A DNA stretch of 43,824 nucleotides from positions 1-43,824 of the forward strand of contig JAUIFX010000009.1 in NCBI GenBank assembly GCA_030429865.1, given 5' to 3'. The position numbers were made by a program, and so were the translations under genes. The notes below the pieces were generated by a model. It was given only the letters and a program-made list of their open reading frames with translations, searched no databases and was not told where the DNA came from. Below, piece after piece: positions 7,055 through 40,389 of the stretch (positions within the stretch are counted from its first letter, which is position 1; every line of letters starts with the position of its first letter). Origin of the DNA: Gammaproteobacteria bacterium (GTDB taxonomy: Bacteria; Pseudomonadota; Gammaproteobacteria; Ga0077536).

Positions 7055-8002
<948 letters not shown>

Positions 8003-8216
8003 GATGACGCTCCAGCAAACGTGAGAGGGTTGTCCGACGCGGCCGGCAAGCGGCTTGCGGGACCGCCGCCGGGCTGCGCGCCGCTGACGGCAGCGGACGG
8101 ACGGGCGCGGTGTGCGATCGCGCTCGGCCCGGCAGTGTACCCGAGGCGGTCACGACGATGGTGAACGTACAATGGCGCGAGATCCACGTCCCTGCCGCCT
8201 GCGACGAATCGCCACC

Positions 8217-8639
8217 ATGACGGACCACCTGTTGCGCATGCTCGAAGCCGCCTTGCCGTGGCTCGCGCTCGTCTCGCTGGCGTCCCTCGTTCTCGTCGTG
8301 ATCGCGGTACCGGTGATCGTCGTCGAACTGCCCGCCGGCTACTTCGCGCGTCCCGAGCGCGGCAAGTTCCCGTGGTGGGCGCGCCACCCGCTGGTCCGGC
8401 TGCCGTTCCGGGTGATCAAGAACGCGCTCGCCGTCGTGCTTCTCGCGATTGGTATCGCGCTGCTGGTGCTGCCGGGGCAGGGGCTGTTGACGATCGCGGT
8501 AGGCGTGCTGCTGCTCGACTTTCCCGGCAAGTATCACCTCGAGCGCTGGCTGATCTGCCGGCCGCGCGTGCTCGGCCTGTTCAATCGCATCCGCGTACGC
8601 GCCGGCAAGCCGCCGTTCGACATCGTCGAGGACCCTTGA
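8217..8639 (+). CDS. PGPGW-family transmembrane protein
   Basis: A 140-residue membrane protein with two main spans, residues about 15-38 and 70-105. The second holds the family motif: ALLVLPGQGLLTIAVG, corresponding to the PGPGW signature, then LLLLDFPGK. The tail is basic. Function of the family is unknown; a role in envelope maintenance is often guessed. The start chosen is ATG at 8217 because everything upstream in frame is Arg-rich and unlike the family. A TACAAT hexamer at 8168-8173 may be its -10 element. The gene converges on the next leftward gene. Confidence 0.82.
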   Translation: MTDHLLRMLEAALPWLALVSLASLVLVVIAVPVIVVELPAGYFARPERGKFPWWARHPLVRLPFRVIKNALAVVLLAIGIALLVLPGQGLLTIAVGVLLLDFPGKYHLERWLICRPRVLGLFNRIRVRAGKPPFDIVEDP

Positions 8640-8661
8640 GCGCGGTGTGCCGCGGGCGGCG

Positions 8662-9165
8662 CTAGCGCGCGGGGGGCTGTGCGGGGCTCATGCGGCTGCT
8701 GAAGTCCCAGCTCGTCATGCGCCGCGGTTCGAACTCGAGCACCACTTCGCTGTCGATGCGCGCGAGCAGCCAGCGGCGCAGCCCCGGATCGCGGTCGCCG
8801 AGATAGCGGTCGGCCAGCGCCTCGAGCACGCCGCCGGGATCGCGATCCGCGATGCGCCCGAGGGCGCGGCCGCTGAGGCCGCGGTAGGGCGGGGTGTTCA
8901 CCGCGAGTTCGAAGCCCGCACGCGGATCGCGCCCGAGGTTGCGCGCGACGACGGCACTGCGCTGGGTGCAGCACAGGAAGCGGCCGGCTTCGAGCAGGAA
9001 CCACAGCGAGGTGATGTGCGGAAAGCCTTGTGCGTCTAGCGTCGAGACGCGCAACGGGATCACCGCGCGCTCGGCGAAGGCGAGCGCGGCGGTGGCGCCG
9101 GGGCGGCTGCGCGCGCCGAGCGCGCGTTGGAAAACGGTCAGGGTCGGGTCGCTTGTGTCGGGCAT
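8662..9165 (-). CDS. Pyridoxamine 5'-phosphate oxidase-family flavin-binding protein
   Basis: A 167-residue split-barrel protein. VIPLRVSTLDAQGFPHITSLWFLLEAGRFLCCTQ followed by ARNLGRDPRAGFEL is the usual pattern of FMN-binding PPOX-like proteins, where the first strands bind the flavin phosphate. The C-terminal part ends with strands and a Trp-Asp-Phe segment typical of the family. The reaction cannot be read from sequence; members reduce or oxidise a range of small molecules, or bind F420 or haem. F420 use is unlikely if the host is a gammaproteobacterium. It is divergent from the flavin oxidoreductase at 9304. Confidence 0.82.
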   Translation of the reverse strand: MPDTSDPTLTVFQRALGARSRPGATAALAFAERAVIPLRVSTLDAQGFPHITSLWFLLEAGRFLCCTQRSAVVARNLGRDPRAGFELAVNTPPYRGLSGRALGRIADRDPGGVLEALADRYLGDRDPGLRRWLLARIDSEVVLEFEPRRMTSWDFSSRMSPAQPPAR

Positions 9166-9303
9166 GGGGCCGGGTCACCGTGATGCACGTGCTCTCGGAG
9201 CGCAAGCATAGATCGGCGCGCGCCGCGCGTGGCGGTTCGCCACGGTGGTCCGCGGGCGCCTGCGAGCCGTATCAGGTTCGTGGACAGCAACTCGCCCCTC
9301 GCC

Positions 9304-10338
9304 ATGCGGCTCGTGCGCCGCGCCCCATCCGCGCCGGCAGTCGCCGTGGTCGGCGCGGGCATCGCCGGGCTGAGTGCCGCGCGTGCGCTCACCGCGCACG
9401 GTTTCGCGGTCCAGGTGTATGACCGCGGACGGCGTCCCGGTGGCCGCTGCAGCACGCGCCGTACGAGTCACGGCACGTTCGATCACGGTGCGCAGTATTT
9501 CACGGCCCGGGACCCGCGCTTCGCTGCCGAGATGGCGCGCCTGCAGCAGGCCGGACATGTCGCGGCCTGGCCTGGCCGCATCGTCGCGCTCGAGGGCGGC
9601 GCCGCCACCGGCACCGCGCCCTGTGCGCGCTACGTCGGGCTGCCGACGATGGATGCCCTGGTCACGCAGCTCGCCGCCGGGCAGACCATACGCCAGCAGG
9701 TCAACGTCGCGGCGGCGCATGCAGACGAGCGCGGCTGGTCGCTGGTCGCCGCGAGCGGCGCCGCGCTCGGGCGCTTCGACGGGCTCGTGCTCGCGCTGCC
9801 GCCGGAGCAGGCGCTGCCCCTGGTGCCGCGGCGGCTCGCGCTGCGGGCGACGCTGCGTACGCAGGCTTCGGCGCCGTGCTGGGCGCTGCTGCTGGCCTTC
9901 GACGCGCCGCTGCCGCTCGATTTCGACGGTGCGTTCGTCACCGATGCGGCACTCGGCTGGATGGCGCGCGACTCGGCCAAACCCGCGCGCGGCGACGGCG
10001 AGCGCTGGGTGGCGCATGCGAGCCCCGCCTGGTCGGCGGCGCGACTCCATCTCGACGCGGAGGTGGTCGCCGCGGAGCTGGTCGATGCTTTCTGGCGCGC
10101 GACGGGGCTGGCGCCGCGCCGCCCGTGCTACCGCGCCGCGCACCGCTGGGCCCTGGCGCGGCCCGATGCCGAGGCGCCGGGTACGCCTTGCGAAGCGGAG
10201 CTGGCAATCGCCGCGTGCGGTGACTGGTGTCACGGTGGCCGCATCGAAGGCGCCTGGCTGAGCGGCATCGAGGCCGGCGAAGCGGTCGCGCGGGCGCTGC
10301 GTGGCGCCGCACCGGGCCGCGCGGGCGCGGGCGCTTGA
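9304..10338 (+). CDS. NAD(P)/FAD-dependent oxidoreductase, renalase/amine-oxidase-like
   Basis: A 344-residue flavoprotein. The N-terminal dinucleotide fold is VAVVGAGIAGLSAARAL, followed by VYDRGRRPGGRCSTRR, the FAD-binding pattern of renalase-like proteins, and FDHGAQYFTARDP. The C-terminal GDWCHGGRIEGAWLSGIEAG closes the FAD site. Such proteins oxidise amines or reduced nicotinamide isomers; the substrate here is unknown. I prefer ATG at 9304 because the fold begins 12 residues later. An in-frame GTG at 9280 is an alternative. The stop overlaps the TTG start of the next gene (TTGA), so the two are translationally coupled. Confidence 0.87.
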   Translation: MRLVRRAPSAPAVAVVGAGIAGLSAARALTAHGFAVQVYDRGRRPGGRCSTRRTSHGTFDHGAQYFTARDPRFAAEMARLQQAGHVAAWPGRIVALEGGAATGTAPCARYVGLPTMDALVTQLAAGQTIRQQVNVAAAHADERGWSLVAASGAALGRFDGLVLALPPEQALPLVPRRLALRATLRTQASAPCWALLLAFDAPLPLDFDGAFVTDAALGWMARDSAKPARGDGERWVAHASPAWSAARLHLDAEVVAAELVDAFWRATGLAPRRPCYRAAHRWALARPDAEAPGTPCEAELAIAACGDWCHGGRIEGAWLSGIEAGEAVARALRGAAPGRAGAGA

Positions 10339-11081
10339 GCGCCGCGCTCGTCGTCGGTGCGAGCGGCGGCATCGGCAGTGCAATCGTCGCCGGGCTGCTG
10401 GCGCGGGATGCGCATGAGGTGGTCGTCGCGGCTTGCCGCGAACCGGCCGCGTCGGAAGCCTTGACGAAACTCGCGAACGCGCATCCGCAGCGCCTGCTGA
10501 CGCTGGCGCTCGACGTCACGGACCCCGCGTCGCTGGCCGATGCCGCGGCGCGCCTCGCGGGGCGGGTGAACACGCTGACGATGATCATCAACTGTGCCGG
10601 CGTACTCCAGGCCGGCGCGCTGCAACCGGAGCGACGCCTGTCCGAGGTCGATGCCGCGGCGCTCGTCGAATCGTTCCGCGTCAACGCACTCGGCGCGTTG
10701 CTGGTCGCGCAGGCGTTTGCCCCGCTGCTCGATCGCGAAGCGCGTAGCGTTCTCGCCAACTTGTCGGCACGGGTGGGATCGATCGGCGACAACCGCCTCG
10801 GCGGGTGGTACGCCTACCGCGCATCGAAGGCGGCGCAGAACATGTTCACGCGCAATCTCGCCATCGAGTTGGCACGCCGCCATCGCGGGCTGATCTGCGT
10901 CGCGCTGCATCCCGGTACGGTCGACACCGGCCTGTCGCGCCCGTTCCAGGCGCGGGTGCCGCCGGAGCGGCTGTTCACGCCGGCACGCGCGGCGCGCCAG
11001 CTGCTCGGCGTCATCGACGCGCTCGGGCCCGGTGACAACGGCGGCTTCTTCGCCTGGGACGGCAGTCCCGTGCCGTGGTGA
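10335..11081 (+). CDS. Short-chain dehydrogenase/reductase (C-factor-like)
   Basis: A 248-residue classical SDR. The cofactor motif GASGGIG lies at residues 8-14, DVTDP near 60, NCAG near 80 and the active-site pair YRASK near 156. The segment HPGTVDTGLSRPF and ending GPGDNGGFFAWDGSPVPW resemble the C-factor (CsgA) subgroup. No ATG or GTG fits: the fold begins right after TTG at 10335, whose last two bases form part of the upstream stop codon. A TTG start with coupled translation is therefore the best model. Function is probably reduction of a small carbonyl compound together with the upstream flavoprotein; the substrate is unknown. Confidence 0.87.
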   Translation: MSAALVVGASGGIGSAIVAGLLARDAHEVVVAACREPAASEALTKLANAHPQRLLTLALDVTDPASLADAAARLAGRVNTLTMIINCAGVLQAGALQPERRLSEVDAAALVESFRVNALGALLVAQAFAPLLDREARSVLANLSARVGSIGDNRLGGWYAYRASKAAQNMFTRNLAIELARRHRGLICVALHPGTVDTGLSRPFQARVPPERLFTPARAARQLLGVIDALGPGDNGGFFAWDGSPVPW

Positions 11082-11200
11082 ATGCGCCCGTGCCCACGCG
11101 GGCTGCGTGAGCGCACGGCCGGGCGCGCGCGTCTGGCACAATGCGTGGCAGCGCCCCGCCGCTGCGGGTGCGCATTCACGACCGGGGAGGCGAGAAGTCC

Positions 11201-12091
11201 ATGAGCGAGCAACGGGCGCGGCGCGCGCCGTTCGACAGACAGGCGCTGTGGTTCGACAGCGAGGGCGTCGCGCTGTGCGGCTGGCTGGCCCGTCCGCATG
11301 CCGCCGATGCCCCTGTACCGTTGATCATCCTCACTCACGGCTTGTCCGGCATCATCGATCTCGACCTCGCCGAGTACGCCGAGCGTTTCGTCGCCGCGGG
11401 CTTTGCCTGTTTCGCCTACGACCACCGCAACTGGGGCCGCAGCGCCGGCTGGCCGCGCGGCGAGAGCGATCCGTGGCGCCAGGTCGGCGACCTGCGCGAG
11501 GCGATCAGCTTCGCACGCACCCTGCCCGGCATCGATCCGGACCGCATCGGCCTGTGGGGGACGAGCTATGCCGGCGGTCATGTCCTCACCGTCAGCGCGC
11601 TCGACCGCCGCGTGCGTTGTGCCGTTTCGCAGGTGCCCTTGACGAGCGGCTCGCGTACCTTCGAGAGCTGGGTGCCGGCCGACAAGCGCGCCGCGTTCCG
11701 CGCGCGCCTCGACGCCGATCGCGACGCGCGCCGACGCGGCGAGCCGCCAGCGGTGACGGCCGCCGCGACGCGCGGTTCGGAGACCGCCGAATGGGTCGCA
11801 CGCAAGGATGTCGACGGCCGCTACGACAATGCGCTGACCCTGCGCAGTTTCGACTTGCTGCGTACCTACGAGCCGGCGTCGTTCTGCGCGGCCATCGCGC
11901 CGACGCCGCTGCTGATGATCGTCGCCCGGCACGACACCACCACGCCGACGGCCTGGCAGCACGAGGCGTTTGCCGCGATCGGCGAGCCCAAGCAGCTGCT
12001 CGAGCTCGACTGCCGGCATTACGACGTCTACATGGACCATCTCGACGCCGCCGCGGATGCGGCGCTCGCCTGGTACCGGGCCCACTTGTGA
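11201..12091 (+). CDS. Alpha/beta hydrolase
   Basis: A 296-residue serine hydrolase. The oxyanion segment LTHGLSG is near residue 40, the nucleophile elbow GTSYAGG near 125, and later IVARHDTTTP likely carries the catalytic Asp and the C-terminal YMDHLD the His. The overall order matches dienelactone-hydrolase/CocE-like esterases. ATG at 11201 follows a good GGGGAGG site at 11184-11190; a CACAAT hexamer at 11137-11142 could be its -10. It is 25 bases ahead of the exporter gene and likely co-transcribed. The substrate is not readable from sequence. Confidence 0.87.
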   Translation: MSEQRARRAPFDRQALWFDSEGVALCGWLARPHAADAPVPLIILTHGLSGIIDLDLAEYAERFVAAGFACFAYDHRNWGRSAGWPRGESDPWRQVGDLREAISFARTLPGIDPDRIGLWGTSYAGGHVLTVSALDRRVRCAVSQVPLTSGSRTFESWVPADKRAAFRARLDADRDARRRGEPPAVTAAATRGSETAEWVARKDVDGRYDNALTLRSFDLLRTYEPASFCAAIAPTPLLMIVARHDTTTPTAWQHEAFAAIGEPKQLLELDCRHYDVYMDHLDAAADAALAWYRAHL

Positions 12092-12116
12092 TGGCGCGGT
12101 CGCGGCGGCTGCCGGG

Positions 12117-13394
12117 GTGAGTCGCGCGCATCCGGCCGGGGATGCCGCGTTCGCGACCCCCTGGCGCGTGCTGCTGCTCGCGCTGGTATTCGCGATCGTC
12201 GCCATCGGTACGGACATGTACCTGCCGGCGTTTCCCGCCATCCGCGGCGCGTTCGGCGTCACCCCGCAGCAGGTGCAGTTGTCGCTGTCGGTGTTTCTCT
12301 ACGGCAACGCGCTCGGCCAGCTGGTCTACGGCCCGCTGTCCGATCGCCACGGCCGGCGTCCCGTGCTGCTCGGCGGCCTCGCCGCTTACGCGGTTGCCAG
12401 TTTCGGCTGCGCCGCCGCCACCGACATCGACGCGTTCCTGTTCTGCCGCGCGCTGCAGGGCGCGGCCGCAGCCGGCGGCCCGGTGCTCGTGCGTGCGCTC
12501 ATCAACGACCGCCTCGACCGCGTGCGTGCCGCGCACATGCTCGCCTTGCTGACCGCGGTCATGGCGTTCACCGCGATGCTCACGCCCATCGCCGGCGGCT
12601 GGCTGGTCGGCCTCGGCTCGTGGCAGATCCTGTTCGTGTGCATGGGTGTGCTCGGGCTGGCACTGCTCGCGTGCACGGCGCTCGCGGTCGGGGAATCGCT
12701 GCCGCCGGTGCGGCGGCTTGCCACGCTGGGTGCCGCCGAGGTCCTGCACGGCTATCTCGAAATTGCGCGGCGACCGGCCTTCTGGTGCTACGTCGTGCCC
12801 CCGGCAATGATGTTCGCGACCGTGTTCGCCTACGTCGGCGCCAACAGCTTCCTCATCATCGAACAACTCGGCGTGGCCGAGCGCCATCACGGCGGCATCT
12901 ACGCACTGTCCGCGGGTGCGTTCGTCGCCGGCTCGCTGACCAGCACGCGCCTGGTGCTGCACGCCGGTATCGAGCGCGCCATCGTTACCGGGCTCGCCCT
13001 CGGCTGCACGGCGGCGGCGCTGGCCTGCGGCGCGAGCTGGCTGCTGCCCTTGTCCCTGCCGCTGGTCGTGTTGCCGGCGATCGCAACATTTTTTGCCACG
13101 GCGCTGGTGATGCCCGTCGCGGCGGCGAGCGCGGTCAGCCTGTTCCCGCACCGGGCCGGCAGCGCGAGCGCCGTGGCGGGGTTCGCCCAGGTCAGCATCG
13201 CCGGCCTGGGTACTGCTGCCGCGGCATGGCTGGTCGATGATGACACGCGGCCCCTGCACGCGTTCACGCTGGCCTGTTGTGTCGCCGCAGCCACGGTCTG
13301 GCGGGCCGGCGCCCGCATCCGCGCACGGGAATCCGTCGCGGCGGATGCACTGGCGGTGACCGCGCCGTCACGCCCGCCGGCGCCCGGGCGGTGA
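12117..13394 (+). CDS. Multidrug efflux MFS transporter, Bcr/CflA type
   Basis: A 425-residue inner-membrane exporter with 12 spans. IGTDMYLPAFPAI in span 1 is the Bcr/CflA hallmark; GQLVYGPLSDRHGRRPVLL between spans 2 and 3 is the major-facilitator signature; FCRALQGAAAAGGPVLVRALINDR follows in span 4. Family members are proton-driven exporters of bicyclomycin, chloramphenicol, sulfonamides or small peptides; the substrate here is unknown. No ATG lies near the first span. GTG at 12117 gives a 16-residue N-terminal tail before span 1 and is the best start, though its ribosome site is weak. Confidence 0.88.
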   Translation: MSRAHPAGDAAFATPWRVLLLALVFAIVAIGTDMYLPAFPAIRGAFGVTPQQVQLSLSVFLYGNALGQLVYGPLSDRHGRRPVLLGGLAAYAVASFGCAAATDIDAFLFCRALQGAAAAGGPVLVRALINDRLDRVRAAHMLALLTAVMAFTAMLTPIAGGWLVGLGSWQILFVCMGVLGLALLACTALAVGESLPPVRRLATLGAAEVLHGYLEIARRPAFWCYVVPPAMMFATVFAYVGANSFLIIEQLGVAERHHGGIYALSAGAFVAGSLTSTRLVLHAGIERAIVTGLALGCTAAALACGASWLLPLSLPLVVLPAIATFFATALVMPVAAASAVSLFPHRAGSASAVAGFAQVSIAGLGTAAAAWLVDDDTRPLHAFTLACCVAAATVWRAGARIRARESVAADALAVTAPSRPPAPGR

Positions 13395-13437
13395 ACGCAC
13401 GGCGCCGGCCGGGGCCATGACGACACGGGCGGCCGTC

Positions 13438-13462
13438 TCACGTTCCACTGCGCCGAACGTGA
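13438..13462. repeat. Inverted repeat between exporter and M48 protease genes
   Basis: TCACGTT at 13438-13444 is the exact reverse complement of AACGTGA at 13456-13462, with 11 bases between. It lies 44 bases behind the exporter stop and about 35 bases ahead of a CACAAT hexamer that could be the -10 of the protease gene. It could be an operator or a weak terminator; there is no T-run. Confidence 0.35.
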
Positions 13463-13535
13463 CGCGGGTGGTCCCCGCCGCGCGCGGAGTGCGGCACAAT
13501 GATCGCGGCAGCCCGTACCCAGGAGAGCCAGACCC

Positions 13536-14324
13536 TTGAACGTCCATTCCAAGATCGCCGCCGGCGCACTCGGCCTGGCGCTCGTCGCGGCTTGCGCCAC
13601 CAGTCCTACCGGCCGCACGCAACTGCTGGTGTTCCCCGAATCGAGCGCGATCGCTGCCTCCAAGCAGGCCTACAGCGAGATGCTCACCCCGCTCGCCAAG
13701 GAGCACAAGCTCGATACGGACCCGGCCCTCAAGCGGCGCGTGGACGCGATCGTCGAACGCATCAAGGTACAGGCCATCGCGATGCGCCCGGATACGCAGG
13801 GCTGGAACTGGGAAATGACCATCATCGAAGATGACGAGACGGTCAACGCCTGGGCCATGGCGGGCGGCAAGATGGCGCTGTACACCGGGCTGGTCGAGCA
13901 GCTCGAGCCGAGTGACGACGAACTCGCGCAGGTCCTCGCCCACGAACTCGCGCATGCGCTCGCCAAGCACTCGGTGGAGAAGATGTCGGTTGCCGCGGCG
14001 ACCAACGTCGGCGTGCAGACGGTCGGTATCGCGACCGGTTCGGGTCTCGCCATGCAGGGCAGCGCGCTGCTCGCCGCGCTCGCCCTGTCGCTGCCGAACA
14101 GCCGCTCGATGGAGACCGAGGCCGATCGCATCGGCATCGAGCTCGCGGCGAAGGCCGGCTACGACCCGCGCGCGGCCGTGACCCTGTGGGAGAAGATGGG
14201 TGCACTCGGCAACGGCGGCCAGCCGCAGTTCCTCAGTACCCACCCGCATCCGGCGACGCGCCAGGCCGCGCTGGCCGCGCTGGTGCCGCAGATGCTGCCG
14301 TTCTACGAGCAGGCCGGGCGCTGA
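13536..14324 (+). CDS. M48-family zinc metalloprotease lipoprotein
   Basis: A 262-residue predicted lipoprotein protease. The signal peptide ends in the lipobox LVAAC with Cys20 as the lipidated residue; the following Ala suggests outer-membrane sorting. The zinc site is HELAH at residues 136-140, with Glu195 in METEADRIG as the third ligand. This is the arrangement of BepA/LoiP-like M48C proteases, which degrade or help assemble misfolded outer-membrane proteins in the periplasm. No TPR domain follows, so it resembles LoiP more than BepA. The start is TTG at 13536, supported by AGGAG at 13521-13525 and by the signal peptide beginning at once. Confidence 0.9.
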   Translation: MNVHSKIAAGALGLALVAACATSPTGRTQLLVFPESSAIAASKQAYSEMLTPLAKEHKLDTDPALKRRVDAIVERIKVQAIAMRPDTQGWNWEMTIIEDDETVNAWAMAGGKMALYTGLVEQLEPSDDELAQVLAHELAHALAKHSVEKMSVAAATNVGVQTVGIATGSGLAMQGSALLAALALSLPNSRSMETEADRIGIELAAKAGYDPRAAVTLWEKMGALGNGGQPQFLSTHPHPATRQAALAALVPQMLPFYEQAGR

Positions 14325-14413
14325 GGGGCCGCCGCGGCGGTCGTCCGCCCTCGACGCGGCCGGCGACGGGGCGTAGTCTGGGTTGTCCGTTCCTGGCCGA
14401 AGAGGGAGCCGCC

Positions 14414-15637
14414 ATGCCCGACCCGACTTCCCCCGCGCGCCGCCGCTTTCTGCGCCTCGGCGCCGCTACCGGCGCCGCCGCCGGGCTCGCGCCCGGCCTG
14501 CTGCCGGCACGCACCGCGGCCGCTCCGCGCGTGCAGTCCTACCGCCGGCTCGGCCGCACCGGGCTCGAGATCTCCGACATCTCGTTCGGTTCGAGCCGCC
14601 TGCGCGAAGGCCAGGAAGCGCTCGTTCATCACGCGCTCGATCGCGGCATCAACTACTTCGACTCCGCTTACGGCTATACGGGTGGCGACGCCGAGCGCGT
14701 ACTCGGGCGCGCCTTGCGCGGGAAGCGTGGGGAAGTGGTCCTGGTGTCCAAGGTGGAGGGCGAAGCGGACTGGCCGGCGGCGCGCATGATGGCCGAGCTC
14801 GACGAATCGCTGCAACGCCTGCAGACCGACTACATCGACATCTACATGGCACACGCGGTCAACGACGTCGAGCGCCTGCGCAGCCCCGAGTGGCATGCCT
14901 TCGTCGAGCGCGCGAAACAGCAGGGCAAGATCCGCTTCGCCGGCATGTCGGGGCACGCGGGGCATCTCATCGAGTGCCTCGATTACGCCATCGACGAGGA
15001 CATGGTCGACGTTATCCTGTGTGCCTACAACTTCGGCCAGGACCCGGCGTTCTACGAGCGTTTCACGCGCTCGTTCAACTACGTCGCGATGCAGCCGGAC
15101 CTGCCGCGCGTGCTTGCCAAGGCCAGGTCCAAGGACATCGGTACGGTCGTGATGAAGACGCTGATGGGCGCCCGGCTCAATGACCTGCGCGAGTTCGAGC
15201 GCGACGGTGGGACCTTCGCCCAGGCCGCGTTTCGCTGGGTGCTCTCGAATGCCGACATCGATGCGCTGGTCGTGACCATGAAGTCGACCGCGGACATCGA
15301 CGAGTATCTCGGTGCCTCGGGCGCGAGCAGCCTCGCCGCGGGCGACCTCGAACTGCTGTTCCGCTACGCGCAGGCGAACGGCATGACCTACTGCCGCCAT
15401 GCCTGCAACGACTGCGCGGGTGCCTGTCCTTACGGTGTCGACATCCCGAACGTGCTGCGCACGCGCATGTACGCGACCGACTACCAGGATGTCGCTTTCG
15501 CGCGCGACGAGTACGCGCGCGTCACGCCCAATGCCGCAGCGTGCGCCAGCTGTTCCGGGCAGCCCTGTCGCGACGCGTGCAGCCATGGTCTGCCGATCGC
15601 CGAGATGTGCGCGCCCACGCATCGCTGGCTGGCCTGA
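14414..15637 (+). CDS. Tat-exported aldo/keto reductase with C-terminal Fe-S cysteine clusters
   Basis: A 407-residue protein. ARRRFLRLG near residue 8 is a twin-arginine signal ending around TAAA at 37. The aldo/keto reductase barrel follows, with likely catalytic Asp83, Tyr88, Lys113 and His147. Beyond residue 320 are two cysteine sets: Cys327, 331, 334, 338 (CxxxCxxCxxxC followed by Pro) and Cys377, 380, 385, 389. The first looks like a [4Fe-4S] ferredoxin motif and the second may hold another cluster. AKR proteins with ferredoxin-like tails are known, but the exported form with two sets is less usual. ATG at 14414 follows GAGGGAGCC. Substrate and redox partner are unknown. Confidence 0.88.
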   Translation: MPDPTSPARRRFLRLGAATGAAAGLAPGLLPARTAAAPRVQSYRRLGRTGLEISDISFGSSRLREGQEALVHHALDRGINYFDSAYGYTGGDAERVLGRALRGKRGEVVLVSKVEGEADWPAARMMAELDESLQRLQTDYIDIYMAHAVNDVERLRSPEWHAFVERAKQQGKIRFAGMSGHAGHLIECLDYAIDEDMVDVILCAYNFGQDPAFYERFTRSFNYVAMQPDLPRVLAKARSKDIGTVVMKTLMGARLNDLREFERDGGTFAQAAFRWVLSNADIDALVVTMKSTADIDEYLGASGASSLAAGDLELLFRYAQANGMTYCRHACNDCAGACPYGVDIPNVLRTRMYATDYQDVAFARDEYARVTPNAAACASCSGQPCRDACSHGLPIAEMCAPTHRWLA

Positions 15638-31420: not shown

Positions 31421-32866
31421 TCAGGCGTTGTCGCCGGCCGCGACCCAGTTGCCGTGGAAGCCGGGCGGGATGCGGTGCGGCAAGGCAACCGTGGCGAGCG
31501 GCGGTGCGCCGAAGTCGGCGGCGTCGAGCACCGTCAGCGCGGTGGTGTCGTCGTTCATGTCGACGACCAGTCCGAGCAGCCAGCCGTCGTCCTCGGCCGC
31601 GTCGGCGCTGCGCGGCACGAACACGAACTCGCCCGGGTGGCGGCCGGGGCCGAAGTCGTGCACGGCACGCTCGCCGCGCTCGAGGTCGTGGCGGAACAGG
31701 CGCGTATCGGTGACCAGCCCGGGGCCGTCGGCAGCCGCCGCCATGCAGTAGGCGTAGCGGTAGGGGCGGCCGGTGCGGCGTTCGTCGTAACGCGGGAACT
31801 CCTGGCCTTCGCTGTCGACGACCTGGCGCGCGACGGCCGCCGCACCGGGGGCCAGCGTCCAGCGCTCGAAGCTCATGTGCGAGCCGTCCGGGCCATCGTA
31901 GTGGTCGTCGAACATGCGATCGTGAGCGACGACATCGACCACGACGCTGCCGTCGGCGCGTTCGAAGGCGTTGGCGGGATGGAACACGAAGCAGGGCTCG
32001 ATGGCGTACCAGCGCATGTCCGCTGCCGTGCCGTGGCGCGGCAGCAGGCCGACGCGTGCCGGGTGCTCGGGATTCCAGCGGTAGGGGAACGGGTGGCCGG
32101 CGAGCAGCAGCGCCATGGAGAACGTGACCGGCAGGTCGAGCACGATCACGTAGCGCGGCGTGATGGCGCAATCGTGGATGCACGGGCCGTCGGCAACCGC
32201 GATCGGCTCCTCGCGGACGACCCGGCCGGCGGCGTCGACCACGGTATGCCAGACGGTGTCCTGCACGTCGCCGCGGTAGCAGATGGCGTGCAGCTCGCCG
32301 TTCGCCGGGTCGCGATGCGGATGCGCGGAGTAGGGACCGGCGAGGCCGCCGGCGAAATCGTCGTAGCACTCGGTACCGAGGGTTTCGTCGAGCCGCACCG
32401 GCGCGGTGCCGGCCTCGACCAGCGCCCAGGTGCGTCCGGCGTGTCCGATGACGTTGGTGTTGACGACGCCGCGCTCGCGCCCGGGCGGTGCCGGGACGGC
32501 GGGTTCGCCGAGGGCTGTGCTGACCGCGTCCGACCGGATCCAGCGGTTGCGGTACCACGCAGCCTTGCCGTCGTGCAGGCGCACGCCGTGCACCATGCCG
32601 TCACCGACGAACCAGTGGTGCGTGGCGGGGTTCGGTGCGACCAGCGGATTGGGTCCGATGCGCAGGTAGCGGCCGTCGAGCGCCGGCGGCAGGGAGCCGG
32701 TGACGGGCAGGTCGGTGAGGGTGTGCTCGACCGTCAGCGGGGCATGGATGCCGCTCAGGTAGGGATGCGCGTCGGCGCGCGTGCGTACCGCGTTCGCGGC
32801 GCGCGCGACGCCGCGGGCGCCGGCGGTGATCGAGGATCGGATGAGCTTCTCGACTTTGCTGGACAT
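31421..32866 (-). CDS. Carotenoid oxygenase family protein (RPE65/CCO)
   Basis: A 481-residue non-haem iron dioxygenase of the carotenoid/stilbene cleavage family. The four iron-binding His are His182 (SAHPHRD), His231 (CIHDCAIT), His296 (CFVFHPANAF) and His471 (GFHGNW), each in the expected blade of the seven-bladed propeller. GRYLRIGPNP near 66 and HHWFVGDGMVHGVRL near 83 are conserved family segments. Bacterial members cleave carotenoids, apocarotenals or lignin-derived stilbenes; the substrate cannot be chosen by eye. A GGGAGG ribosome site precedes the ATG. The gene is divergent from a TetR regulator, and a 15-bp inverted repeat overlaps its likely promoter, so it is probably the regulator's target. 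Confidence 0.93.
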   Translation of the reverse strand: MSSKVEKLIRSSITAGARGVARAANAVRTRADAHPYLSGIHAPLTVEHTLTDLPVTGSLPPALDGRYLRIGPNPLVAPNPATHHWFVGDGMVHGVRLHDGKAAWYRNRWIRSDAVSTALGEPAVPAPPGRERGVVNTNVIGHAGRTWALVEAGTAPVRLDETLGTECYDDFAGGLAGPYSAHPHRDPANGELHAICYRGDVQDTVWHTVVDAAGRVVREEPIAVADGPCIHDCAITPRYVIVLDLPVTFSMALLLAGHPFPYRWNPEHPARVGLLPRHGTAADMRWYAIEPCFVFHPANAFERADGSVVVDVVAHDRMFDDHYDGPDGSHMSFERWTLAPGAAAVARQVVDSEGQEFPRYDERRTGRPYRYAYCMAAAADGPGLVTDTRLFRHDLERGERAVHDFGPGRHPGEFVFVPRSADAAEDDGWLLGLVVDMNDDTTALTVLDAADFGAPPLATVALPHRIPPGFHGNWVAAGDNA

Positions 32867-33572: not shown

Positions 33573-34610
33573 TCAGGCGTTGCCGTTACCGTTGCTGTGG
33601 CGGTCGCGCGCGATCTCGGCGCACAAGGCCGCGACGTCCTGCGGGCTGCCGAGGATCACCGGCACACGCTCGTGCAGGGAACCCGGCTCGACGTCCAGGA
33701 TGTCGCCGCTGCCCGTGTCGCCGCGGCCGCCGGCCTGTTCGACCAGCCAGGCCATGGGGTTGGCCTCGTACATCAGCCGCAGCTTGCCGTTCGGCGCCAG
33801 CGCCGTCGGCGGATAGAGGAACACGCCGCCCTTGAGCAGGACACGGTGGACATCGGCGACCATCGCGCCGGCATAGCGGCTGCCGTAGCCCTGGCGGCGG
33901 CAGTTGTCGAGGAAACGCCGGTAGCCCGCCGGGAACCCTTCGACGTTGGCCTCGTTGACCGAGTAGATCTTGCCGCGCCGCGGGATGCGTACCTTCTCCC
34001 CGGCGCGCACGTAGTTGCCGATGGCCGGGTCGAGCACGAACATGTCGACCCCGTCGCCGAGCGTCATGACGAAAATCGTCGACGGGCCGTAGAGCACGTA
34101 GCCCGCGGCGACCTGGCGCCGTCCGGCCTGCAGGTTCGTTTCCTCGCCCGGGGCGACCTCGTAGATCGAGAAGATGGTACCGACGCTGCCGCCCACATCG
34201 AGATTCGATGAGCCATCGAGCGGGTCGAACAGCACCGCGTAGCGGCAACCCTGGGCCGGCGGGCCATCGACGACGATGAGGTCGTCATTCTCTTCGGAGC
34301 CCAGCACGACCACGCCTTCGCGCGCCTGGAGTTCCTGGATGAGCACCTCGTCGGCGATGACGTCGAGCGCCTGCTGGTCCTCGCCCTGCACGTTGACTTC
34401 GCCGACGGCGCCGAGATTGCCGTCGAGGCCGGCCGTGCGCAGGCGTGCGGCGATGACTTTCGAGGCGCTGGAGATGGCCGAGACGATCCAGCTGAGCGAA
34501 CGGCTGCCATCGGTACGGGCAGCGCGCTCGGCAGCGAGCAGGTGGTTCTGCAGCGTCTGCGGGGCGGGACGGTTACGTAGCGGTACGACGACGGAAGCGG
34601 GCTCTGCCAT
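33573..34610 (-). CDS. fbp: Class 1 fructose-1,6-bisphosphatase
   Basis: A 345-residue enzyme that removes the 1-phosphate from fructose-1,6-bisphosphate in gluconeogenesis. GSEENDD (residues 104-110) and DPLDGSSN (129-136) supply the metal-binding acids, and YSVNEANVEGFPAGYRRF and GGVFLYPPTALAPNGKLRLMYEANPMAWLVEQAGG are the conserved C-terminal substrate-binding regions. Length is normal. ATG at 34610 follows GGAGCCCC. It is divergent from the glucosylglycerol module across about 400 bases. Hexose phosphate produced here can be turned into glucose-1-phosphate and ADP-glucose, the donor for glucosylglycerol, so the neighbourhood makes metabolic sense, although fbp occurs in most bacteria regardless. 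Confidence 0.96.
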   Translation of the reverse strand: MAEPASVVVPLRNRPAPQTLQNHLLAAERAARTDGSRSLSWIVSAISSASKVIAARLRTAGLDGNLGAVGEVNVQGEDQQALDVIADEVLIQELQAREGVVVLGSEENDDLIVVDGPPAQGCRYAVLFDPLDGSSNLDVGGSVGTIFSIYEVAPGEETNLQAGRRQVAAGYVLYGPSTIFVMTLGDGVDMFVLDPAIGNYVRAGEKVRIPRRGKIYSVNEANVEGFPAGYRRFLDNCRRQGYGSRYAGAMVADVHRVLLKGGVFLYPPTALAPNGKLRLMYEANPMAWLVEQAGGRGDTGSGDILDVEPGSLHERVPVILGSPQDVAALCAEIARDRHSNGNGNA

Positions 34611-34730
34611 GAGGGGCTCCTTTGGAGTTCGTGCTCGGATTTTCGTTGTCACTATGGGAAGGCATTGTGACCGCACGACGTCAGCGCCGCTGTGAGCACG
34701 TTCTAAGATTACGCAAGTTAACAATCGGAG

Positions 34731-34742
34731 CTTGCATGCAAG
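34731..34742. promoter_or_regulatory. Perfect 12-bp palindrome CTTGCATGCAAG
   Basis: CTTGCATGCAAG is fully self-complementary and lies in the AT-rich part of the divergent region, 121 bases ahead of the fbp start. A third copy of the half-site, GCAAG, is at 34713-34717 in front of GTTAAC. Symmetric sites of this size are typical of LacI- or GntR-type sugar regulators; the protein is unknown. Confidence 0.45.
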
Positions 34743-34805
34743 GCGCGGGCCCGTTCCCGATGGCCCCGCCGCGGCGCCATCGCGGTCCCGCCCGCTTGCC
34801 GAAAC

Positions 34806-34822
34806 TGCACCAAGATGGGGAG
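34806..34822. promoter_or_regulatory. NtrC-like site (imperfect)
   Basis: TGCACCAAGATGGGGAG agrees with the NtrC consensus TGCACCA-N3-TGGTGCA at 11 of 14 fixed positions; the second half-site is degenerate. It lies about 130 bases ahead of the sigma-54-like element, a normal distance for an NtrC enhancer. A single imperfect site can be chance in GC-rich DNA. Confidence 0.3.
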
Positions 34823-34945
34823 GCGCATGCACGATAACGGCCCATCACGGTCCGCGCGCGGCCGCACGCCGCGCTGCGCCGAGGGCCCGAATCGGCCCTG
34901 TTTTCGCCCGTTTCCGCGCGATTCGCGGCGTCGTGCTGCATGCGC

Positions 34946-34961
34946 TGGCACGGTTCTCGCT
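34946..34961 (+). promoter_or_regulatory. Sigma-54-like -24/-12 promoter (one mismatch)
   Basis: TGGCACG-GTTC-TCGCT differs from the sigma-54 consensus TGGCACG-N4-TTGC(A/T) only by C for T in the -12 half. Transcription would start near 34973, 36 bases ahead of the TTG chosen as start of the phosphorylase gene. The C at the first -12 position would weaken it, so this is a candidate only. Confidence 0.35.
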
Positions 34962-35008
34962 TCGATCGCGGTTAATTGCACCAGTGGCGCGCGGCGCGCC
35001 CCGGGACC

Positions 35009-36448
35009 TTGCTGAAGAACACCTGCCAGCTCATCGCCTATCCCAATCGCATCGGCGCCGGTCTCGGCGATCTGCGCTTCGCGCTCGACAACTACTTCCA
35101 TACCGCGGTCGGCGGCGTCCACGTGCTGCCGCCGTTTCCGTCGAATGCCGACGGTGGCTTCTCGCCCATTTCGCATCGCGAAATCGATCCTGCCTACGGT
35201 ACATGGACGGATCTCGAGGCCATCGCCGCCGACTATGATCTCTGTCTCGACATCACGCTGAACCACATTTCCGACGAGTCGCGCGAGTTCCAGGACTTCC
35301 TCGCGCGCGGCCGCAGCTCGGAGTACGCCGGGCTCTTCGTGCGCCTCAGCGAACTGCCCGATATCGGTCCGGACGACCTCGCCAAGATTCACATCCGCAA
35401 GGAGAAGGTGCCGTTCCGCGAGATTCAATTCGGCGACGGGACCGTCGATCGCGTGTGGTGCACGTTCACCGAGAAGCAGATCGATCTCGATTACACGAGC
35501 GAGGACACCTACCGCTTCGTCGGTGGGATCATCGCCTTTCTCGCCGCACGCGGCGTCAAGCTGTTCCGCCTCGACGCATTCGGCTACACGACCAAGCGCG
35601 TCGGCACGAGCTGCTTCCTGGTCGAGCCCGATGTCTACCAGATCCTGGACTGGGCCAACGGCGTGGCGAAGAGCCACGGCGCCGAAATCCTGCCCGAGGT
35701 GCACGATCACCCGAGCTACCAGAGCGCGATCGGTCAGCGCGACATGCGGCCCTATGCCTTCGCGCTGCCGCCGCTGGTGCTCTACTCGCTGCTCGACGCC
35801 AACAGCCGTTACCTGAAGAACTGGTTGCGCACCTGCCCGCGGAACCAGATCACCGTGCTCGATACCCACGACGGCATCTGCATACCCGACGTAGAGGACC
35901 TGCTGCCGGCCGAACGCGTGCAGGACCTGGTCGACAACGTCATCCAGCGCAGTGCCGATCCGATCATGCGCGGCTCGGCCGCGAGCGTGCATTCCGTCGG
36001 CGCGATCTACCAGCTCACCTGCACGTTCTACGATGCGCTCAAGCGCAATGACGACGCCTACGTCTGCGCGCGTGCCATCCAGCTCTTCACGCCGGGCATT
36101 CCGCAGGTCTACTACGTCGGACTCTTGTGCGGTACGAACGACGAATCCCTGTGCGACGAGACCGGTGAGCCGCGTGACATCAACCGTCACTACTTCACGT
36201 TGCCCGAAGTCGAAGAGCGCCTGGCGACGCCGACCGTCAAGCGCCTGCTGCGGCTGATGAGCTTCCGCAATACCTATCCCGCGTTCGACGGCGAGTTCGA
36301 GCTGCACTACTCCAACGACGCCAGCCTGGTCGTCGCGTGGCGCAACGGCGAGGCGTGGTGCGAACTTTTCTGCGATCTCATGTTCAAGCGCGCCACCATC
36401 GACTATTTCGACCTCGACACGCGCAGGCGATTGTCCATGCGCTGCTGA
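35009..36448 (+). CDS. GH13_18 sugar phosphorylase, probably glucosylglycerol phosphorylase
   Basis: A 479-residue glycoside phosphorylase of the sucrose-phosphorylase subfamily GH13_18. The nucleophile is Asp189 (LFRLDAFGY), acid/base Glu230 (ILPEVHDH) and stabiliser Asp288 (LDTHDGI). GVHVLPPFPSNADGGFSPISH and NHISDESREFQDFLA match sucrose and glucosylglycerol phosphorylases rather than the glucosylglycerate type. It would reversibly split glucosylglycerol with phosphate to glucose-1-phosphate and glycerol; the main reason is the GgpPS gene that follows after 87 bases. Sucrose phosphorylase remains possible. No ATG is near the N-terminus: the family start (KNTCQLIAYPNRIG) follows TTG at 35009; TTG at 34976 is an alternative. 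Start confidence is low, family confidence high. Confidence 0.87.
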   Translation: MLKNTCQLIAYPNRIGAGLGDLRFALDNYFHTAVGGVHVLPPFPSNADGGFSPISHREIDPAYGTWTDLEAIAADYDLCLDITLNHISDESREFQDFLARGRSSEYAGLFVRLSELPDIGPDDLAKIHIRKEKVPFREIQFGDGTVDRVWCTFTEKQIDLDYTSEDTYRFVGGIIAFLAARGVKLFRLDAFGYTTKRVGTSCFLVEPDVYQILDWANGVAKSHGAEILPEVHDHPSYQSAIGQRDMRPYAFALPPLVLYSLLDANSRYLKNWLRTCPRNQITVLDTHDGICIPDVEDLLPAERVQDLVDNVIQRSADPIMRGSAASVHSVGAIYQLTCTFYDALKRNDDAYVCARAIQLFTPGIPQVYYVGLLCGTNDESLCDETGEPRDINRHYFTLPEVEERLATPTVKRLLRLMSFRNTYPAFDGEFELHYSNDASLVVAWRNGEAWCELFCDLMFKRATIDYFDLDTRRRLSMRC

Positions 36449-36535
36449 GCGGCCTCGTGCCGCCTCCCTTCACCCGCTCGGAAGTCCTTCCCGCCCCGTT
36501 CAATCCCCTTCAAGTCAAATTCACAGGTGACCCGC

Positions 36536-38827
36536 ATGCTGCTAGCAACCGACCTCGACGGCACGTACCTCGGCGGTTCGCGCGCCGACCGCGACCGTCT
36601 CTACCGCCTCATCGACGAGACGCCGGACATCACGCTCGCCTACGTCACCGGGCGTGGCCTCGAACACGTGCGTCCGCTGCTGTCCGACCCGTCCCTCGCG
36701 CGTCCCGATTACATCGTCTGTGACGTTGGCGCGACCATCGTGGACGGCCGTACGCTCGAACCCGTGCAGCCCCTGCAGGCGGCGATCGACGAACGCTGGC
36801 CGGGTGAGCAGGGTATCGCCGAGGCGATGCGTGCCTATCCCGAAGTGCTGCGACAGGACGTGCCGCAACAGCGTCGCTGCTCGTACTACGCCGACCCGGA
36901 TGCGCTCGCGCGCGTGATGAACGAGGTCAAGCGCATCGCCGAGGACTGCGACTGCGATCTCATCTACTCGGCAAGCTGGTACCTCGATTTCCTGCCGCGC
37001 GGCATCAACAAGGGGTCGGCGGTGCGCGAGCTCGCCGCCCTGTTGGATACGCCGCTAGACGAGGTGCTCGTCGCCGGCGATACGCTCAACGACCTCAGCA
37101 TGTACAAGATCGGGTGCCGCGGTGTCTGTGTCGGGCGTTCCGAACCCGAGCTGCTCTACGAGACGCGCGAGCGCGAGCACATCCTGCACGCGCGCCGCTC
37201 CGGCTGCGGCGGGATTCTCGAAGCCCTGGAACACTTCGGGTTCGTCGATGCACCGCATATCCACGGACACAAGCAGGCCGTCGCGCCCGGCGAAGCGGAG
37301 CTCGTCATGCTCTACCACCGCCTGCCCTACGCGGAAGTGATCGAGGACGGCGTCGTCGAGCGCCGGCCGCATGCTTCGCCGAACGGCATCCTGCCGACCC
37401 TGCTCGGTTTCTTCAAATCCGCGCGATCGGCGGGTTCCTGGGTCGCCTGGTCGGTGCACGAGGACGAGGCGGTCCCGTTCGAGAAGCGCACCGTGGTCGA
37501 CGAGTCGCAGTACCCGAACCTGGTCTGCTCGCGCGTGCCGCTGAGCAAGCACGAGGTCGACGTCTTCTACAAGCGTTTCTCGAAAGAAGCGTTCTGGCCG
37601 CTGCTGCACACGTTCTGGGAACGCTCGGCTTTCAACGAGGACCACTGGCAGATTTATGTCGACATCAACCGCAAGTTCGCGCGGCACGCGGCGGAGGAGG
37701 CGGCCGACGGCGCGCTGGTCTGGATCCATGACTACAACCTGTGGATGGTCCCGGGCTTCCTGCGCGAACTCCGCCCCGACGTCCAGATTGCGTTCTTCCA
37801 TCACACCTATTTCCCTTCGGCAGACGTGTTCAACGTGCTGCCGTGGCGCAACGACATCATCGGCAGCCTGATGCAGTGCGACTACATCGGCTTCCACATT
37901 CCCCGCCAGCTCGAGAACTTCATCGATTGCGTGCGCGGCGTGATGCCGGTCGAGGTGCTCGAACGCACACGCTGCGCACCGCGTTTCCTCACCTACGGCT
38001 GCGCGGTGGGGATCGAGCACATGACGACGGCGATCCGGGTCAACGACCACGCGCTCAGGCTGGGCGCGCATCCGGTCGGCCTCGACATCGCGCGCATCGA
38101 TCACCTCATCGAACAGGACAGCATTGCCGCGCGTGTCGAGGAGCTGCGCGCGATGAACGACGACATGCAGGTGATCCTGTCGGTCGAACGCCTCGATTTC
38201 ACCAAGGGTGTGCTGCAGAAGCTGCAGGCCTACGAGCAGTTGCTCGAAGAGAACCCCGATCTCGTCGGCCGTATCACGCTGATCGACGTCTGCGTGCCGG
38301 CGGCGCGCGAGATGACCATCTACCAAGAGCTCGAGCGCCAGATCGACGAATGCGTCGGGCGCATCAACGGGCGTTTCGGCAAGCTCGGCTACATGCCGGT
38401 GCAGTTCCTGTTCCAGCCGCTGCCGTTCGAGGAGCTCGTCGGCCTGTACGCGATTGCGGACGTGATGTGGATCACGCCGCTGCGCGATGGTCTCAACCTG
38501 GTCGCCAAGGAATACGTGGCGACGCGCTTCAAGACCGCCGGGCACGGCGTGCTGGTGCTCTCGGAGTTCACCGGTGCGGCCGCCGAACTCCATGGCGCGA
38601 TCCTGACCAATCCGCACGATCAGCGGAACCTGGTCGATGCCGTGCTGCGCGCGTTGAAGCTCGACGAGCGCGAGTCGCGCAACCTCATGACCACGCTCTA
38701 CAACATCGTAGAGTACAACGACGTCGACAGCTGGGCGCAGGAGTTCATGGAAGCGGCGCGCGGCGCCTGCCTGCCGCGCCAACCCATGCTGACGCCTGCG
38801 CTGGTGGCGAATCGCGCGGCCGTCTGA
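36536..38827 (+). CDS. ggpPS: Glucosylglycerol-phosphate synthase/phosphatase fusion (GgpPS)
   Basis: A 763-residue bifunctional enzyme. Residues 1-235 are a HAD phosphatase of the sucrose-phosphatase type: DLDGT (6-10), Lys159 and GDTLND (181-186). Residues 255-750 are a GT20 glycosyltransferase. SPNGILPTL, SKEAFWPLLHTF, HDYNLWMVP and AFFHHTYFPS match glucosylglycerol-phosphate synthase GgpS more closely than trehalose-phosphate synthase. It would join ADP-glucose to glycerol-3-phosphate and then remove the phosphate, giving the compatible solute glucosylglycerol. The same fusion is known from Stenotrophomonas rhizophila. ATG at 36536 is supported by AGGTGA at 36525-36530; GTG at 36527 is too close to that site. 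The symporter gene follows after 14 bases. Confidence 0.92.
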   Translation: MLLATDLDGTYLGGSRADRDRLYRLIDETPDITLAYVTGRGLEHVRPLLSDPSLARPDYIVCDVGATIVDGRTLEPVQPLQAAIDERWPGEQGIAEAMRAYPEVLRQDVPQQRRCSYYADPDALARVMNEVKRIAEDCDCDLIYSASWYLDFLPRGINKGSAVRELAALLDTPLDEVLVAGDTLNDLSMYKIGCRGVCVGRSEPELLYETREREHILHARRSGCGGILEALEHFGFVDAPHIHGHKQAVAPGEAELVMLYHRLPYAEVIEDGVVERRPHASPNGILPTLLGFFKSARSAGSWVAWSVHEDEAVPFEKRTVVDESQYPNLVCSRVPLSKHEVDVFYKRFSKEAFWPLLHTFWERSAFNEDHWQIYVDINRKFARHAAEEAADGALVWIHDYNLWMVPGFLRELRPDVQIAFFHHTYFPSADVFNVLPWRNDIIGSLMQCDYIGFHIPRQLENFIDCVRGVMPVEVLERTRCAPRFLTYGCAVGIEHMTTAIRVNDHALRLGAHPVGLDIARIDHLIEQDSIAARVEELRAMNDDMQVILSVERLDFTKGVLQKLQAYEQLLEENPDLVGRITLIDVCVPAAREMTIYQELERQIDECVGRINGRFGKLGYMPVQFLFQPLPFEELVGLYAIADVMWITPLRDGLNLVAKEYVATRFKTAGHGVLVLSEFTGAAAELHGAILTNPHDQRNLVDAVLRALKLDERESRNLMTTLYNIVEYNDVDSWAQEFMEAARGACLPRQPMLTPALVANRAAV

Positions 38828-38841
38828 GCGCGCCGGACGGC

Positions 38842-40389
38842 ATGCCGGCTCTCGCGAGCGCCGACTACCTGGTGCTCGCGGCGTATGCCGCGTTCCTGCT
38901 CGTCGTCTGCGTGCGCGTCTACCAGCGCGCGCCGCGCGACGACGAGCTGTTCCTCGCCGGGCGCAGCCTGGGTGCGGGCGTCGTCGGCTTGTCACTGTTC
39001 GCGTCGAACATTTCCTCGACGACGCTGATTGGCCTGCCGGGCGCAGCCTGGCAGAGCGGCATCGCGGTGGCGAACTACGAGTGGATGGCAGCGCTCGTGC
39101 TGCTCGCGAGCGCCTACCTCGTCGTGCCGCGCCTGCTCGCCGCGCGTGTGACGACCGTGCCCGAGTTTCTCGAGCAGCGCTTCGGTGCCGGCGCGCGGCG
39201 CTATCTCTCCGGCACCTCGCTGTTCCTGAGCATCGTCGTCGACACGGCGGGCTCGCTGTATGCCGGCGCGCTCGTCATCATGCTCTTCGTGCCCGGCCTG
39301 TCGCTGGCGTGGACCTGTGCCGGGCTCGCGCTCGTCGCCGGCCTGTACACTGCCGCCGGCGGACTGCGCGCGGTGGTCTACACCGACGTGCTGCAAACCG
39401 TGGTGCTGCTGATCGGCTCGCTGACCCTTGCCGTCATCGTCTTCGCCGAGTTCGACTTCGAATGGCGCCGATTCGCCGCCGCCGTTCCGCCCGATCATCT
39501 CTCGCTGCTGCGGCCACTCGACGATCCCGCGCTGCCCTGGCTCGGTACCCTGCTCGGGCTGCCGATCATGGGCTTCTACTACTGGACGATGAACCAGTAC
39601 GTCGCCCAGCGCCTGCTCGGCGCGCGCGACGTCGCCGCGGCCGGACGCGGCGCCGTGCTTGCTGCGCTGCTCAAGCTCGCGCCGCTGTTCGTGATGGTGC
39701 TGCCGGGCGCGATGGCCATCGTGCTGCTGCCGGACCTCGCGCGCGGTGACGAAGTGTTCCCGCGGCTCATCGCGACGTACGCACCGGCCGGCCTGGCCGG
39801 GCTCATGATCGCCGGGCTGATCGCCGCCATCATGTCGAGCGTCGACTCGGCTCTGAACTCGGCCTCGACGCTGGTCATCGTCGATTTCGTCAAGCCGCGC
39901 CGGCCGCAGCTGGACGCGCGCGCGAGCGCCCGCCTGGGACGGGCGACCACGATCGCCATGATGCTGCTCGCCGTGGCCTGGGCGCCGGCCATCGCCTCGT
40001 TCGAGGGCTTGTTCGCCTACCTGCAGCAGGCGTTTGCCTACGTCACCGCACCGCTCGTGGCACTGTTCGTGCTGGCCCTTCGCCGGCGCCGGCCCGGTCC
40101 GCGGGCGGCGCTCGCCGGCACCCTGAGTGGGCACGCGCTCAGCGCCGCCTGCTTTGCCGCGGCGCAGGCCGGCTGGCTCGGCGTCCATTTCACGCTGATC
40201 GCGGTGGTCCTCTTCGTTGCCACGCTGTGGGCATGCGCCGTGTGGCAGCGCGTACTGGACGAAGCGGTGCAGGTCGACGACCGGGATGCGGAGCCGCCGG
40301 CTTCCTGGCGCGCGCTGCCGCGCAGCGCGCACGTAGGCACGGCGCTGACGTTGACATTGTGTGCGCTGCTCGTGTGGCAATTCCGCTGA
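38842..40389 (+). CDS. Sodium:solute symporter (SSS family), candidate glucosylglycerol transporter
   Basis: A 515-residue inner-membrane protein with about 13 spans of the SSS/SLC5 family. DDELFLAGRSLGAGVVGLSLFASNISSTTLIGLPGAAW is the N-terminal signature; GGLRAVVYTDVLQTVVLL near residue 175 and MIAGLIAAIMSSVDSALNSASTLVIVDF near 325 carry the sodium-site Ser/Asp region. GLPIMGFYYWTMNQYVAQRLLGARD matches sugar or inositol-type members. It begins 14 bases behind ggpPS, so it is co-transcribed; sodium-driven uptake or recovery of glucosylglycerol, glycerol or a sugar is the natural proposal, but the substrate is inferred from position only. Its stop is three bases from the convergent amidase stop. 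Confidence 0.88.
   Translation: MPALASADYLVLAAYAAFLLVVCVRVYQRAPRDDELFLAGRSLGAGVVGLSLFASNISSTTLIGLPGAAWQSGIAVANYEWMAALVLLASAYLVVPRLLAARVTTVPEFLEQRFGAGARRYLSGTSLFLSIVVDTAGSLYAGALVIMLFVPGLSLAWTCAGLALVAGLYTAAGGLRAVVYTDVLQTVVLLIGSLTLAVIVFAEFDFEWRRFAAAVPPDHLSLLRPLDDPALPWLGTLLGLPIMGFYYWTMNQYVAQRLLGARDVAAAGRGAVLAALLKLAPLFVMVLPGAMAIVLLPDLARGDEVFPRLIATYAPAGLAGLMIAGLIAAIMSSVDSALNSASTLVIVDFVKPRRPQLDARASARLGRATTIAMMLLAVAWAPAIASFEGLFAYLQQAFAYVTAPLVALFVLALRRRRPGPRAALAGTLSGHALSAACFAAAQAGWLGVHFTLIAVVLFVATLWACAVWQRVLDEAVQVDDRDAEPPASWRALPRSAHVGTALTLTLCALLVWQFR

Follow-up and report, generated by a model that had tools for sequence, protein, structure and literature searches.

The window, a 43,824-nucleotide stretch of DNA from a draft gammaproteobacterial genome (4.6 Mb in 291 contigs), carries a class 1 fructose-1,6-bisphosphatase (FBPase) gene on the reverse strand, followed by three genes that all run on the forward strand. 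The FBPase (33573..34610; PF00316/PF18913) is a divergent neighbor of these genes; its reading frame spans 33573-34832, with the start at 34610 (345 aa) being the likelier one. The forward genes encode a putative GH13_18 2-O-alpha-glucosylglycerol phosphorylase (GGP; 35009..36448, TTG start, MLKN..., 479 aa), a predicted GgpPS with an N-terminal HAD/S6PP phosphatase and a C-terminal GT20 synthase (36536..38827, 763 aa, with a GTG at 36527 also possible as the start), and an SSS/SLC5-type sodium:solute symporter (38842..40389, 515 aa), which is a candidate importer of glucosylglycerol (GG). A gap of 87 bases separates GGP from GgpPS, a gap of 14 bases separates GgpPS from the symporter, and there are no internal stops in any of the frames; the open reading frames and family profiles confirm the genes, strands and gaps given in an earlier note on this DNA. 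We infer that the three genes are co-transcribed; a promoter and terminator scan of the locus found nothing exceeding shuffled sequence.

A sister genome (L004) has the identical four genes in identical order at 92-97% identity, so the arrangement is not an accident of assembly. The GC content of GGP and GgpPS (34976-38827) is 63-65%, against about 67-76% for nearly all other genes in the window and about 68-75% for most of the genes around them, while the symporter, at 71%, is unlike this pair. A sample of 34 genomes from other genera of the family yielded no GgpPS-type gene above E=1e-150; this absence and the low GC of the GGP/GgpPS pair make gain of the module by transfer plausible. The contrast in GC also raises the possibility that the symporter and the two enzyme genes have separate origins. 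Elsewhere in the window, at 31421-32866, lies a carotenoid cleavage dioxygenase that exceeds the curated cut-off for 8'-apo-carotenoid 13,14-cleaving dioxygenase.

The phosphorylase matches the glucosylglycerol phosphorylases of Marinobacter (MaGGP, 7xdr/7xdq; MsGGP, 9j1u) with E=1e-225 and 750-753 bits, whereas the best sucrose phosphorylase chain gives E=2e-133 and 449 bits. It contains the loop-A motif VGAIYQ (...VHSVGAIYQLTC...), described by Franceus and Desmet as the mark of GG phosphorylases, where the motif of the sucrose phosphorylase type is N(L/V)D(I/L/V)YQ (PMC7178133). With the active-site residues of MsGGP as a reference (PMC11787520), the residues of the glucose, glycerol and phosphate sites and the catalytic residues are identical in the window enzyme at 14 of 14 positions, offset by one. 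The protein also scores above the cut-off of the TIGR03852 'sucrose phosphorylase' model; this model does not separate the specificities, and its label is thus too coarse for GGP. Judged by its sequence, the GH13_18 enzyme is a glucosylglycerol phosphorylase (EC 2.4.1.359) and not of the sucrose type; the motif, the conserved residues and the bit scores bear out the earlier note, which had read it as a GG-type enzyme.

The fusion protein scores 682 bits with TIGR02398, the curated GgpS model, against a cut-off of 569, and the OtsA (trehalose-6-phosphate synthase) models remain below their own cut-offs. PF05116 covers residues 3-239, the N-terminal HAD/S6PP phosphatase, and PF00982 is the other domain found; the motifs of both activities are intact (DLDGT and GDTLND in the phosphatase, RLDFTKG and DGLNLVAKEY in the transferase). 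These profile and motif matches identify the HAD-GT20 fusion as GgpPS, and the TIGR02398 score upholds the earlier note on this point. In the host genome a full-length homologue of GlgC falls short of the GlgC cut-off, and several other ggpPS genomes have no GlgC above the cut-off, so UDP-glucose rather than ADP-glucose may serve as the donor in the latter. The earlier note had FBPase supplying the pathway by way of ADP-glucose; this role is not borne out. Among 80 ggpPS loci, only those of the host genus (two genomes) have FBPase beside the module, and as a neighbor confined to this genus it was rejected as a member; it is probably not part of the module.

The third protein is an SSS symporter by its profiles (PF00474, 227 bits; TIGR00813, 294 bits against a cut-off of 184), and it matches SGLT1 with E=6e-61. 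A structural model built from nine sequences is of moderate quality (pLDDT 66, pTM 0.73) and good for the fold only; a single-sequence model was discarded (pLDDT 44). The best PDB matches of the predicted structure are SGLT2, SGLT1 and vSGLT, and the model predicts that the symporter has the SGLT fold. Six of the seven SGLT1 residues that we take to form the sugar site are kept: N56, E80, Y247, W248, K278 and Q395 of the symporter correspond to N78, E102, Y290, W291, K321 and Q457 of SGLT1, while H83 of SGLT1 is replaced by Thr. The Na2-site residues are conserved as well, and sodium coupling is predicted by analogy with SGLT and vSGLT (SLC5), from which the symporter differs in an identity of only about 26-31% and in the Thr. 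The same sugar-site residues are common to homologues of other gene context, so they indicate a pocket of the sugar type without marking it as specific for GG. The SGLT2 structure 7ynj, which matches our model, holds the substrate AMG (alpha-methyl-glucoside); this implies that alpha-glucosides fit this type of pocket and that GG would be a chemically sensible cargo.

Consideration of the gene neighborhoods in other genomes gives insight into what the symporter might carry. We mapped the neighbors within 10 kb of 80 ggpPS loci from public genomes, where the counts are minima on account of contig ends. At least 55 of the 80 loci have a YcaD-type MFS gene next to ggpPS, at least 20 have a GGP with identity above 60% near it, and at least 10 have a homologue of the window symporter within 10 kb. 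The symporter is found about 500 bases or less from ggpPS or ggp in L011 (Pseudoxanthomonas kalamensis), L020 (Algiphilus), L023, L029 (Arenimonas), L031 (a Rhodocyclaceae MAG), L036 (Mangrovimicrobium), L045 (Pseudohaliea), L074 (Panacagrimonas), L091 and the window genus; the carriers include a gammaproteobacterial MAG, and the lineages are Xanthomonadales, Nevskiales-type, Halieaceae and Rhodocyclaceae. It is mostly convergent with ggpPS. The order of the three genes is ggp-ggpPS-SSS in the window genus, SSS-ggpPS-ggp in L036 and ggpPS-ggp-SSS in L045, and L091 has a divergent SSS/ggp pair 3.7 kb from an unfused ggpP-ggpS. These differing orders favor a functional reason for the linkage over inheritance of a single ancestral operon. 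Conservation of the gene order, which the earlier note named as a check, does not hold in the strict sense, as the genes recur together in three further genomes but in different orders; the link that the note drew between the SSS gene and the GG genes extends well beyond the window genome, both in these neighborhoods and in the tree described below.

The linkage has exceptions. In two genomes (G404 and G431) the symporter is present but away from ggp and ggpPS, and the symporter homologues on Rhodobacterales plasmids (45-50% identity) have no GG enzyme among their annotated neighbors. One such region, in Dinoroseobacter shibae pDSHI02 (L168, 3359-9491), contains two sodium:solute symporters, a mechanosensitive channel and a cation transporter, and has the look of an osmotic-stress island. 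Four loci (L020, L029, L031 and L059) hold both an MFS and an SSS gene, and we rejected the idea that the two transporters are mutually exclusive substitutes. In L020, L029 and L031, ggpPS stands between a YcaD-type MFS gene on its upstream side and a convergent SSS gene on its downstream side, the two transporters possibly forming a pair of exporter and importer.

Of 50 ggpPS genomes, 10 have a close symporter homologue (E<=1e-180); about 765 random draws from the class and the phylum, with some genomes drawn twice, gave none apart from the host genome. The Fisher p of about 3e-13 is a loose figure, as relatedness is uncorrected and presence of ggpPS was itself the basis for choosing the 50 genomes. 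The tree places the window symporter in a group whose 12 members all come from ggpPS genomes; support at the fork of this group is modest (80/78). The random draws also gave six more distant SSS homologues, and four of these six genomes have a GgpS-type synthase (G054, G060, G462 and G739, with G239 and G297 lacking one); as a raw count, three of the four have ggpP and ggpS as unfused genes, with a GgpS that exceeds the curated cut-off. Within the 50 ggpPS genomes, GGP is present in 7 of 10 with the symporter and in 22 of 40 without it (p=0.31), and co-occurrence of GGP with the symporter was dropped as not significant.

We propose that the three genes probably constitute a compatible-solute module for GG (2-O-alpha-D-glucosylglycerol) that includes a Na+/GG importer. 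GgpPS would join nucleotide-activated glucose to glycerol-3-phosphate and then remove the phosphate to give GG, and on a drop in salt GGP would convert GG and phosphate to alpha-glucose-1-phosphate and glycerol. The symporter would use sodium to take up external GG, derived from the cell's own leakage or from release by other GG makers, and the imported GG would either be accumulated under salt or be passed to GGP. Such a physiology would amount to the closed loop envisaged in the earlier note. As the cargo of the symporter, we consider GG the probable substrate.

The main rival cargo, though a rather unlikely one, is glycerol, imported as the aglycone for GG synthesis or in salvage of the glycerol released by GGP. 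In G054 an SSS-glpK-glpD operon (L090, 8895-13691) opens with a 60% homologue of the symporter, and from this position its cargo should contain glycerol; the host genome itself has glpK-glpD and lacks a MIP channel. However, the G054 genome also carries ggpP-ggpS, so both GG and glycerol are possible there, and the L090 homologue lies outside the tree group of the window symporter. Absence of a MIP channel, seen in 13 of the 16 genomes with the symporter, was rejected as evidence for glycerol; it is uninformative, since 152 of 184 genomes of the class lack the channel too. The pyranose-binding residues kept in the pocket argue against glycerol, as do the isolates Pseudoxanthomonas kalamensis (G407) and Arenimonas fontis (G425), where the symporter adjoins ggpPS in genomes with no detectable glycerol kinase. 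GGP was not found in these two isolates either, and their symporter would thus serve accumulation rather than catabolism.

A little less probable again is import of glucose, sucrose, trehalose or another alpha-glucoside, with the linkage to GG genes reflecting shared osmotic control; the imported sugar would feed glucose-1-phosphate or act as a second osmolyte. Among solved structures, the nearest relatives are symporters of glucose and galactose; the sister group in the tree has TonB receptors or a Gfo/Idh-type oxidoreductase as neighbors; and a picocyanobacterial SSS protein has been guessed to be 'possibly a glucose transporter' (PMC9361551). Against this, no enzymes of glucose, sucrose or trehalose were recognized among the neighbors of the closest symporter relatives, whose recurrent partners are the GG genes. 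That the symporter is a chance neighbor with no functional tie to GG is very improbable: while it lies within 10 kb in only 10 of the 80 ggpPS loci, its adjacency arose independently in several lineages with differing arrangements, and its co-occurrence with ggpPS at the genome level is strong. Finally, we rejected as scarcely credible a sucrose phosphorylase acting in a module for sucrose, which is favored by the TIGR03852 score but contradicted by the loop-A motif, by the 753 bits to GGPs against 449 to sucrose phosphorylase, and by the true GgpPS gene that adjoins.

Comparison with known systems shows which parts of the proposed GG module have precedents. The pairing of GgpPS with GGP for making and breaking GG is already known, and two thirds of the loop are thus not new. 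The ggpPS-ggp pair of Marinobacter has been published with enzyme data, structures and a mutant; as in the window, a fused GgpPS and a GH13_18 GGP are adjacent and run in one direction, and GG is made and phosphorolysed, but in Marinobacter ggpPS precedes ggp with 17-76 bp between them, whereas ggp is upstream in the window (PMC10873239, PMC11787520). The Marinobacter loci in our survey have no symporter of the window type within 10 kb. The novelty that the earlier note saw in the three-gene form is therefore reduced to the linked symporter: what is probably new is the recurrence of an SSS symporter beside GG genes in distant bacteria, as a candidate sodium-driven GG importer.

Transporters associated with GG in other organisms are of different types. 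In Stenotrophomonas rhizophila a transporter gene, ycaD, also adjoins ggpPS and is coexpressed with it under salt, but YcaD is an MFS protein and a proposed GG exporter, while the window encodes an importer-type SSS protein (PMC3653106, PMC6753628). GgtABCD of Synechocystis imports GG as an osmoprotectant, as predicted for the window symporter, but is an ATP-driven ABC system where the symporter is predicted to be a single-component Na+ carrier. Every marine picocyanobacterial strain has the SSS protein CK_00001517, and of 67 freshwater strains only the two with ggpSP have it; the likeness to our symporter is one of distribution with GG synthesis, and CK_00001517 has been noted only for possible glucose transport (PMC9361551). 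Our literature search found no paper linking GG with a characterized SSS carrier.

GG serves marine cyanobacteria and some heterotrophs as a major osmolyte. The papers we found discuss only two GG transporters, the cyanobacterial ABC importer and the proposed MFS exporter of Stenotrophomonas, and assign no carrier to GG uptake by heterotrophs. We see an even chance that the window symporter represents an SGLT-like subfamily dedicated to GG, the first secondary-active GG importer, assembled repeatedly with GG genes in Beta- and Gammaproteobacteria and perhaps including the picocyanobacterial SSS protein. A GG-linked symporter subfamily would make GG uptake and cross-feeding directly testable, and could serve as a marker gene for GG recycling and as a transporter for GG production strains.

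Several other loci met in this work contain related arrangements. The SSS-glpK-glpD operon of L090 may provide sodium-driven uptake of glycerol or of a glycerol glycoside. L166 (G462, 7347-15311) has a gpsA-ggpP-ggpS operon, in which gpsA encodes the enzyme supplying glycerol-3-phosphate for GG synthesis, followed by genes of an ABC-type importer (a probable binding protein, two permeases and a UgpC-like ATPase) that is probably a GG importer. In L159 (2193-11484), and also in L013, L014, L016, L022, L035 and L041, GGP and/or ggpPS lie near genes of ectoine breakdown (doeA2, doeB2, a transaminase and an aldehyde dehydrogenase), which we read as a compatible-solute island.
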